NCBI GenBank assembly: GCA_018649885.1
Contig: JABIHA010000058.1
Location: forward strand, 1 to 64,000
DNA: 64,000 nucleotides
DNA from: Bacteriovoracaceae bacterium
GTDB taxonomy: Bacteria > Bdellovibrionota > Bacteriovoracia > Bacteriovoracales > Bacteriovoracaceae
Direction of reading: 5' to 3'
In this document: one piece after another, positions 26,708 through 29,709 of the stretch
Numbering within the stretch: the first letter of the stretch is position 1
Layout: every line of letters starts with the position of its first letter
Notes under the pieces: generated by a model
The model's database searches: none
Told to the model about the DNA's origin: nothing
The model's input: only the letters and a program-made list of their open reading frames with translations
Program-made: the position numbers and the translations under genes

Positions 26708-26964
26708 CCATTTTCCCTTGCTCTTCTATTTTCAGGCCATAGGGAAATCAATGCTCCATAAATGTTACTATTAATGAAAAAATGTTCTTTTTACCATCAT
26801 TTAGACAATACGTGCATATTTAGGTCACTAAAAAGAGCGCCAATAATTATTGCGGTATTTGGGCCATGAGCACAATAAAATATATTTATATAATGTTATA
26901 CCTACCTCATATTTTATTTGGAAAAAAGATGTTTAAAGTTGGTGAAAATAGTTATGGGAAAATT

Positions 26965-27379
26965 CTGTTCACGATACTGGAGCTTTTAGTGATCTAATGA
27001 AGTCCTATAAATATCTTTAACAGGGTCGCCCAGACAAGGCATGATTTTTAAGCAGAGTATTTTTTCCTGTAACATTTGTGGAATCAATTAAGGAAGGATG
27101 CTGTTCACGGTGCTGGAACTTTTAGTGATCCTATGAAGTCTTATAAGCACCTTCATCGGGGTCGTCGCCCAGACAAGGCATACTTTTTAAGCAGAGTATT
27201 TTTTCCTATAAGATTTGTGGAATCAGTTAAGGGAGGATGCTGTTCACGGTGCTGGAAGTTTTAGTTATTTTATGAAGTCTTATAAGCACCTTCTATCAAG
27301 GCGTAAATTTTTAAGCAAAGTAATTTTTTATTGATGTCTCGCTCTAGCAGAGTTTAGTTAGCGTGGTAATTGCTCTTAT
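26965..27379 (+). repeat. Three direct tandem copies of a ~136-139-bp repeat
   Basis: The core CTGTTCACG recurs at 26965, 27101 and 27240. Shared blocks in each copy: a GGATGCTGTTCACGGTGCTG-type start, a TATGAAGTCTTATAAGCACC block and TTAAGCAGAGTATTTTTTCC. The first copy is the most diverged. Periods are not multiples of three, so this is not a coding repeat. Bases 26708-26964 show no gene. Confidence 0.85.
27175..27379 (+). repeat. Left inverted arm (205 bp)
   Basis: Begins AAGGCATACTTTTTAAGCAG and ends near GCGTGGTAATTGCTCTTAT. It matches the reverse complement of 28660-28864 with about ten mismatches and no gap. Its left part is also the last tandem copy of the repeat array. Confidence 0.9.
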
Positions 27380-27544
27380 TAAAAATAAATATGTGGTTCG
27401 GTGGTAAATTTGATTAATACATTAGTTTGTCAGTTTGATAGCTATTTGGATTTTTTTTTGTCAATGTGGTGGGACAAATTTTGGCCGCAGCTTGATATCA
27501 ATAAACAAGTAAGAGAAAAAAATTGAAGCCGATCTATGAGTTGC

Positions 27545-28450
27545 CTAGCTCTGATTTATATATAAATCCATTTTTCCTTGTGAGAGTGCCACAATAGCAG
27601 CTCTTGCATTACAATTTGAGCATAATTGGCGCACGTTCCCAATCGCCGATGATCCTGAAATACTATAAGGGATGATGTGATCAAAGTGTAGATTGTATTT
27701 TGAACCACAGTTCTCACACTTATTTCCGGATCTTGCGATCACAGCTTTTTTGATAACAGCAGAGATTGCTCTTTTGTTTGTGATGACCTTAGATTTTCTT
27801 GATCCAATACCCTTTATCTTTTTTCTCATGGATTCTGCCGCAGAATTAATAATATGTCCGATGACCTCATCTGGTTTATAGATTCCCTTATTAGATAGCT
27901 GCTCTTTTATAAACTCATAGTCTTTTGCAGTTTGTCCCACCAAGGTTAGGTGCATACGTAGACTACCATCTGAATGAGCACAAGTTTTAAATTTTGTAGC
28001 ACGCTTCTTTCCAGTTAATTCGTCCACCATCTCCCTTGTCTGGGTTTGAGTTTTCCCTTTAATACAGTTGAGTATTTCATTTTTCTTTTTGTTGCTTTTG
28101 ATATTTCCCACTAAATTTGAGACTTCGGCAAGGTTAGTAAGTGTCACTTGTTTATTTGCCAGTGCTTTATCCGCACCTGGAATATGTCTTAGTGTTTTTG
28201 CTGCTAAAACCCTGCGACTTGTTTCACTATCACTTTTATTAAAATTCTTGCGAATATATTTAAAGAGAGAGCCTGTCTTGTCATCACAAAAAAGTCTCCG
28301 TCTATTGACTTCATTAATGTGGCGAAGGAATTGGCGAGTACAATGTTCCTCTTTTTCATTCCACATTTTAGTATCTGCAATAAGTCTTTCATCTGATAAG
28401 TTTCGTAATGACAAAGCTACCTCCCAATTAGAAGTAACATACCATTTCAA
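27545..28450 (-). CDS. HNH endonuclease of the DUF222-like multi-copy type
   Basis: 301 residues. The N-terminal helical part (LRNLSDERLIADTKMWNEKEEHCTRQFLRHINEVNRRRLF, then SLFKYIRKNF and RRVLAAKTLRHIPGADKAL) matches the helical domain that precedes HNH in a family common in deltaproteobacteria-like genomes. The C-terminal HNH has CENCGSKYNLHFDHIIPYS and NVRQLCSNCNARAA, giving two CxxC pairs and the catalytic His. It likely nicks or cuts DNA. Target and role unknown; it lies inside a repeat-bounded element. No operon partner. Confidence 0.8.
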   Translation of the reverse strand: MKWYVTSNWEVALSLRNLSDERLIADTKMWNEKEEHCTRQFLRHINEVNRRRLFCDDKTGSLFKYIRKNFNKSDSETSRRVLAAKTLRHIPGADKALANKQVTLTNLAEVSNLVGNIKSNKKKNEILNCIKGKTQTQTREMVDELTGKKRATKFKTCAHSDGSLRMHLTLVGQTAKDYEFIKEQLSNKGIYKPDEVIGHIINSAAESMRKKIKGIGSRKSKVITNKRAISAVIKKAVIARSGNKCENCGSKYNLHFDHIIPYSISGSSAIGNVRQLCSNCNARAAIVALSQGKMDLYINQS

Positions 28451-28659
28451 TCACATAAATTAAATGAAAAGATAAAAAGTTGTCCAATCTGAAGTTAATA
28501 AAGGCTAGTGCAGTAAGCACTTTTAAGCAACTCACATTCAAAAAACAAGGCAATGTAAAATACAACACATCAACCAATTATCACAAAACCATTCCACCAA
28601 ACTGATAAAAAAAGACAAAGATTCCAAATACCCATAAGGCCCACATAATCACTTTTTCT

Positions 28660-28864
28660 ATAAAAGCAACTACCACGCTAATTAAATCCAGCTAGAGCGA
28701 GACATCAATAAAAAATTACTTTGCTTAAAAGTTTACGCCTTGATAGAAGGTGCTTATAAGACTTCATAAAATAACTAAAACTTCCAGCACCGTGAACAGC
28801 ATCCTCCCTTAACTGATTCCACAAATCTTACAGAAAAAAATACTCTGCTTAAAAAGCATGCCTT
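28660..28864 (-). repeat. Right inverted arm (205 bp)
   Basis: Mirror of 27175-27379. Differences by eye cluster at the inner end (AGCAGAG versus AGCTGGA, and two further bases). Bases 28865-29058 hold no gene, only degraded copies of the same repeat sequence. Confidence 0.9.
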
Positions 28865-29058
28865 TTCTGTGCATCCCTGAAAAGTGCTCTTCAAAATTTA
28901 GCATCCCCACTAATTTTTCCAGGACCATAAACAACTTACCCCGCAATTCGTTCTACAAGGCGCTCTTCCCTTAAAGAAGTCATCTTTAAGCACTCTTCTG
29001 CAAAATTAAGTGGGGTTTTAATCAGATAGCCAAATACAAGGTTATCAGCACAATTTAC

Positions 29059-29709
29059 TTAAAAAATTTTTGGATTATTGAAGTCATTATTGTCAATGCA
29101 CATAGAGGCCTTACTCATAGGATTGCAGCGATTAAGATAAATCAACTGTCCCTGGTAATATCTTGTGTTCTTTTCATCGAGAAAATCTGCAGGACAACCA
29201 TCACGTTTTGCCATTCTTTGGTATGTAGTTCCAAAAGAGGCATCGAGAAATACTGAATAATCCCAATAGTCACACACCTCTTCTCGGTGGAGAAATATCC
29301 CATCAAAAACCAAGATCACATCTTCAGCAAATGAAATGGGACAGCTGGCCAGCTCTGAGTCTATTTTGTGATCAAAATGCTTTAAATCGATTTGTGGATC
29401 GGTTTAAAATTTTAATGGATCAAGCAGCTTTTGTTTTACAGCATGGTAATTAAAAGAATCCTCAAAAAAACTTTCAGCAGAGCTTTTTCCTTCTGGATAT
29501 CTTTTTATTCGTGGGTTATGAAAATAGTCAATTGAGCTATGTAGTACTGATCGGTCAAAAGACTCTAGAACACTTGTCAATTCAGTTGCAAAGTGTGTTT
29601 TCCCCGATCCATCAACTCCATCTATTCCTACAAGAAGTGGACCTTGTTTATCGATGGATAAAAGTTTTTTTGCAAGTGAAACTAAAAATTTGTTTTTAAC
29701 ATTCATCAA
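29059..29709 (-). pseudogene. Uridine-kinase-family P-loop protein split by an in-frame TAA
   Basis: The first part (29709 down to 29404) has VGIDGVDGSGKTHFATEL (Walker A at residues 31-38) and SSIDYFHNPRIKRYPEG. A TAA at 29404-29406 ends it after LLDPLKF. The same frame continues TDPQIDLKHFDHKIDSE, then ILVFDGIFLHREEV and FLDASFGTTYQRMAKRDG, the rest of a uridine-kinase-like fold. Together about 216 codons, normal for this family. Each half alone lacks essential parts. One base change explains the break; a sequencing error is possible. Confidence 0.8.

Follow-up and report, generated by a model that had tools for sequence, protein, structure and literature searches.

An HNH endonuclease gene enclosed by two inward-pointing repeats (hereafter arms) lies in the 64,000-nucleotide stretch of the Bacteriovoracaceae genome analysed here (the window), and the same arrangement of gene and arms recurs at other loci of this genome. 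The feature is therefore best described as one copy of a dispersed HNH element that is bounded by its own repeats, for which we put spread by cut-and-repair at about an even chance.

Structure of the HNH element in the window

An earlier note on the sequence had described two ungapped 205-nt arms in opposite orientation (27175–27379 and 28660–28864), and these differ at exactly 10 positions. The full match is 219 nt long with 14 mismatches, extending over 27167–27385 in the left arm (plus strand, downstream of the gene) and 28654–28872 in the right arm (minus strand, upstream of the gene), both of which are directed at the gene; the corresponding units of the arm model lie at 27221–27412 and 28624–28818, respectively. 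The match includes an identical run of 99 nt, compared with 18 nt at most in 30 shuffles, and its mismatches crowd the inner ends as had been remarked, with 8 of 14 located in the 40 nt closest to the gene (hypergeometric P = 0.0008). The arms are more than a simple pair, since diverged tandem arm units are present outside both. Outward of the left arm, such units occupy 26934–27164 (plus strand) at a spacing of 136–139 bp, the whole tandem series at this arm spanning 26934–27293 with 139-bp spacing, and a diverged second unit is located outward of the right arm at about 28834–28940 (minus strand; L099 4835–4941). Target-site duplications and a defined terminus were sought at the arm ends of this type of element and none were found, the outer ends having no fixed position.

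The arms enclose a single gene, as the earlier note had stated; it encodes the HNH protein, lies on the minus strand, and is not accompanied by a transposase gene. The gene is separated from the right arm by a noncoding leader (28415–28653) and from the left arm by a noncoding spacer (27386–27544). The open reading frame of 301 aa spans 27545–28450 (minus strand); judged from the sequence, the start is likely to be the TTG at 28414, which is preceded by an RBS-like GGGAGG, giving a predicted product of 289 aa (27545–28414) with a helical N-terminal domain and a C-terminal HNH domain. Adjoining the element, a nucleoside-kinase-like gene is found in two frames (29404–29709 and 29059–29319, together 29059–29709) and appears to be a pseudogene.

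The 289-aa protein matched Pfam HNH (1.6e-10), HNH families alone were above the cut-off, and no RuvC domain was detected by the profile search. Its best NCBIfam match was IscB, which covered the HNH part only. In an AlphaFold model (mean pLDDT 81), the N-terminal domain is helical and is followed by the HNH domain. In Foldseek searches, the HNH domain grouped with the HNH domains of Gme HNH, McrA, IscB, and Cas9, and the N-terminal domain resembled the DNA-binding domains of Noc/ParB with probabilities of 0.9–0.98 and non-significant E-values of 0.3–0.8. HTH_ParB gave a weak match in 1 of 37 family members, and DUF222 was matched by 8 of the 37 (best E 3e-5), the window protein being below match level. 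An assignment to known defence systems was rejected, as PADLOC yielded weak HNH matches only, and a phage or plasmid origin was likewise rejected, as full-length matches were absent from phages, plasmids, and viral contigs.

Copies of the gene and arms in the genome

The genome (G000) is a draft of 5.45 Mb in 151 contigs. In total, 46 HNH protein matches were identified, including ~25 loci with 65–90% identity (an upper bound, as contig-end fragments may be halves of one copy) and others with about 25–30% identity. Arm matches numbered 33 by BLAST and 52 by the arm model. The complete arm–HNH–arm layout was found at seven contig-interior loci (C71, C55, C3, C59, C47, C17, and C92), and the downstream arms were inverted at 13 of 13 loci, so that the arms always face the gene. 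All elements in the contigs examined were placed in intergenic regions. Together with the arm-only derivatives described below, the repeated association of arms and HNH gene partly supports the earlier note's inference of a self-spreading element, and the opposite situation, with the arms occurring only here and the gene at one fixed place, is contradicted by these searches. In 38 other genomes, the arm model found no match, and its scores at 74 HNH loci from other Bdellovibrionota did not exceed chance level.

Gene-less arm pairs were found in C25 (with a remnant of the HNH 3′ end), C29, and C3 (7.6–8.0 kb), the partner arm in the latter two being a weak and partial match. Other arm units without an HNH gene reside in C8, C82, and C132, and one is located at the end of C35. 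The C25 pair (L083 6096–7054) is a hybrid whose left and right arms derive from different arm subfamilies, the HNH 3′ remnant between them being short. In C132 (L084 5851–8785), the arm units, of which the right one is weak, surround an ankyrin-repeat gene rather than an HNH gene. Several HNH copies contain stops or frameshifts, and the copy in C109 (L078 6996–8440) has been split near codon 277 by an IS element encoding a 456-aa transposase.

The arm unit and its dyad

The arm unit is about 170–200 nt in length and contains, near its outer end, a short dyad whose halves are about 37 nt apart. In the window, the dyad of the left arm (27248–27290, plus strand) is formed by GGTGC at 27248–27252 and GCACC at 27286–27290, and that of the right arm (28749–28791, minus strand) by 28787–28791 and 28749–28753. 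The halves covary among copies (GGCGC/GCGCC, GCCC/GGGC, and GGTGC/GCACC); 97% of the dyad cells were paired compared with 81% in shuffles, and the pairing was lost when the partner was slid. The pattern is compatible with a hairpin as well as with a pair of half-sites recognised by a DNA-binding dimer. The arm as a folded RNA was also considered and rejected: RNAalifold returned one 3-pair helix, and MFE z-scores were near 0, no stronger than those of shuffles. Because RNA folding support is absent, our claim is restricted to the short dyad. An Rfam search covering RNA families, introns, and HEARO gave no match for the element.

A related module with GGGCC/GGCCC was found in G000 on the same strand as, and upstream of, five HNH genes from a subfamily with 25% identity, two of the five module matches being weak (E about 0.1). 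Members of this subfamily share a 1.31-kb unit that starts sharply at GTTCACGG, has its 3′ limit at about the end of the open reading frame, and lacks an inverted copy. As this subfamily possesses the upstream module without an inverted copy, the arm upstream of the gene probably represents the ancestral state, and the inverted arm downstream of it a derived one. HNH subfamilies II and III of this genome form discrete 1.3-kb units with sharp ends and a 5′ module, which in five copies of one of the two is the arm-related module just described; no target-site duplication was seen at the ends of subfamily II, and GTAG precedes the dyad in three of five subfamily II units. In both subfamilies (L091, L093, L087, L096, and L089), the copies cease to be similar near the end of the frame, and the stop codons (TAA, TAG, and TGA) and last residues vary accordingly.

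Evolution of the arms and genes

Intact HNH copies show a dN/dS of 0.08 at a dS of about 1.2; the gene copies are thus old and the protein is strongly constrained. The two arms of one element share 79% identity, whereas arms of different elements share 61% on average, an identity that is kept despite near-saturated synonymous sites. In the arm tree, the arm pairs of C71 and C55 are each sisters (100/99 and 99/99, respectively). Gene and arm divergences are loosely correlated (Mantel r = 0.28, P = 0.009), the value for two parts of the gene being 0.36. The likeness of arms within elements, the mixed arms of C25, and the loose gene–arm correlation suggest exchange among copies plus arm-to-arm conversion. 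The 'recently copied' reading in the earlier note agrees with this element's arm pair but not with the gene family, given its dS of about 1.2.

HNH genes and empty sites in other genomes

Many Bdellovibrionota genomes carry several copies of the HNH family. In MEQB01 (G017), JAGLPP01 (G022), and SKYF01, the closest copies share the gene and about 200–360 nt upstream but little downstream. The closed genome G125 (genus g25; one contig, 4.15 Mb) carries nine close HNH copies sharing roughly −75 to +20. Junction queries made from the flank pairs of these nine copies were searched against sister species, and gene-free, continuous intergenic flanks were found at three of the nine loci: the L291 site is empty in G101, G102, G108, and G118; the L286 site in G102, G103, G107, G108, G116, and G120; and the L284 site in G024, G106, G118, and G123. 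The flanks at the empty sites are 60–80% identical, too diverged for exact termini or duplications to be defined. No palindrome of the kind described in the next subsection was found at the empty sites of these relatives, and insertion into a pre-existing palindrome is therefore unsupported. Empty sites, which the earlier note had proposed to look for, thus exist for homologous HNH units of another genus; among the genomes available, the nearest relatives of the window subfamily belong to other genera.

Several HNH loci outside G000 have further repetitive features. In L178–L221 (SKLV01 and SKYF01 genomes), the length of the HNH gene varies between the N-terminal and HNH domains, in a partly repetitive-looking region. 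In L174 (4169–4431 and 5220–5262), a 15-bp-period array upstream of the HNH gene is also matched inside the gene. In L181 (3118–6608), a Bdellovibrionaceae HNH gene is surrounded by a different dispersed repeat, which is intergenic, roughly 165 bp long, and present there in both direct and inverted orientation.

Lineage-specific palindromes associated with HNH genes

The 18-bp palindrome ACTTTCGCYRGCGRAAGT or a one-mismatch form of it is located upstream of all nine G125 HNH genes. With up to two mismatches, it has 57 forward matches in G125 and none in the reversed control; with up to one mismatch, there are 47 matches in G125, 17 in G103, 11 in G024, and 0–1 in each of the remaining 23 species in g25. 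The G125 palindromes lie about 70 nt upstream of the gene, before a TTGACA-type promoter, and some are followed by a T-run. A second palindrome is present inside eight of the nine genes, where it encodes (S)LSPAKV; in L284–L291, this internal palindrome is at about gene position 610, between the DNA-binding and HNH parts. Palindromes without a gene occur singly, in arrays, or as inverted pairs with a distance of about 100 bp between the two. Inverted pairs surround a conserved stretch of the HNH promoter in L318, L323, L325, and L326, and in L319 about 214 codons of an HNH gene remain, up to the second palindrome. Two small arrays, L329 (3180569–3180983) and L333 (1235188–1235363), have periods of 54 and 25 bp, respectively.

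Other lineages have different palindromes in comparable positions. Palindromes flank the gene on both sides in G022 (ACGCTCCGGAGCGT), L154/L175 (TGACTTCAYCTAGRTGAAGTCA), and L212 (TTCCACCGGTGGAA), and are found upstream of and inside the gene in L169 and L209 (CTCCGACGTCGGAG) and L196 (CTCCGGCGCCGGAG). ACGCTCCGGAGCGT has seven sites in G022 (control, 0), and CTCCGRCGYCGGAG has 5–21 sites in the four genomes concerned (control, 0–1) and none in four other genomes. In several other genomes, a repeated palindrome was sought upstream of the HNH genes and none was seen; we therefore do not claim a repeat at every HNH gene.

Proposed mechanism and alternative explanations

Under spread by cut-and-repair, the N-terminal domain would bind the repeat (dyad or palindrome), the HNH domain would then nick or cut the DNA at or near it, and repair off another copy would move the cassette or convert the arms. 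The cassette and minimal repeat-only derivatives might thereby spread and remain homogeneous. More tentatively, such elements may represent a class of bacterial mobile elements in which an HNH nuclease and its cognate, lineage-specific palindrome or dyad spread themselves across Bdellovibrionota genera, with different repeats and gene-less REPIN-like pairs, by cut-and-repair without a transposase. There is a reasonable chance that this system is a class of its own; in the literature outside subscription journals, we found no account of an HNH gene that carries a REP-like repeat of its own. Known REP and REPIN populations are associated with Y1 RAYT proteins, and if the proposal is correct, parallel repeat populations in bacterial chromosomes have arisen with an unrelated enzyme. 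It would also account for the frequent occurrence of genes annotated as 'HNH endonuclease' in multiple copies and at the ends of contigs in Bdellovibrionota genomes. G125, with its closed genome, nine genes, 18-bp palindrome, and empty sites, offers a tractable case for spread by a lone nuclease.

The arms might instead be the terminal repeats of an element that is mobilised in trans by some conventional enzyme, such as a Y1/RAYT protein encoded elsewhere, with the HNH gene as a passenger. Y1_Tnp genes are indeed present in G000 (three), G125 (four), and most relatives, the arm-only derivatives look like MITEs or REPINs, and the IS element inside one HNH copy indicates that other transposition occurs. 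However, no arm match was found on the Y1 contigs C65, C118, and C93, none of the listed palindromes lies close to the G125 Y1 genes, and G108 and G017 possess Y1 genes but not the palindromes looked for; arms and palindromes accompany HNH genes. We consider this explanation unlikely, with perhaps one chance in a few. Slightly less probable is that the repeats are regulatory sequences (operators, promoters, or terminators) in a duplicated host gene family, with the HNH protein regulating its own gene via the dyad and the inverted arms being local duplications. The position of the G125 palindromes relative to the promoter and T-run, as well as the constraint on both arms and genes, would suit such a role. 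It does not sit well with palindromes inside the gene, in gene-less inverted pairs, and in arrays, with downstream arms that are inverted without exception, or with gene-free sites in sister species, and the promoter signal in the window arms was no higher than in shuffles.

An RNA-guided HNH element similar to IscB/HEARO, with the arm encoding a guide RNA, is very improbable. A conserved noncoding module with a sharp 5′ edge does lie 5′ of an HNH gene, and IscB is the best NCBIfam match, though by its HNH part only; against this stand the undetected RuvC domain, the lack of HEARO or other Rfam matches, and a single short covarying helix with MFE z-scores around 0. Even more improbable is an assembly artefact in which an inverted copy was misjoined. 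Many contigs of this 151-contig draft end in HNH/arm elements, but the window locus is interior to a 71.5-kb contig, its two arms differ, and the layout is repeated with different sequences at six other contig-interior loci.

Comparison with known systems

Two inverted REPs and their spacer constitute a REPIN (PMC8049555), and the HNH elements share several features with REP/REPIN–RAYT systems, namely genome-specific palindromes that occur as singlets and inverted pairs, beside one gene family, in intergenic regions. Dispersed inverted pairs among the 57 sites in G125 and the arm-only pairs in C25, C29, and C3 of G000 are likewise REPIN-like. Unlike in REP/REPIN–RAYT systems, the partner gene encodes an HNH nuclease rather than a Y1 HuH enzyme, the window arms are about 200 nt long compared with 20–40 nt for REPs, and the GTAG/CGTC foot tag of REPs is absent from both the window arms and the G125 palindromes. 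With IS elements and MITEs, the elements have in common long inverted ends and internally deleted derivatives, but they contain no transposase gene, target duplications were not found, and the arms multiply as tandem units. They differ from IscB/HEARO (OMEGA) systems in that neither a RuvC domain with an inserted HNH domain nor a HEARO or omega RNA upstream was detected.

Free-standing HNH homing endonucleases are similar in consisting of a lone nuclease gene that appears at new intergenic sites without a transposase, with a constrained protein and decayed copies, and the absence of the gene from orthologous sites of relatives at three of nine G125 loci is also a trait of homing elements. Unlike them, the present elements exist in many copies per genome, each with its own repeat on both sides. 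They also differ from intron- or intein-borne homing endonucleases, as the element is intergenic and has no Rfam intron match. By analogy, the system may function as a REPIN population that depends on an HNH protein instead of a RAYT, or as a free-standing homing nuclease that targets its own repeat. A further parallel is the DUF222–HNH group (REP13E12) of Mycobacterium tuberculosis, whose multi-copy HNH genes are counted as a class of repetitive element (PMC10589994). DUF222 was matched in 8 of 37 relatives of the window protein, which itself has no match. Flanking cognate palindromes are not mentioned in the accessible descriptions of REP13E12.
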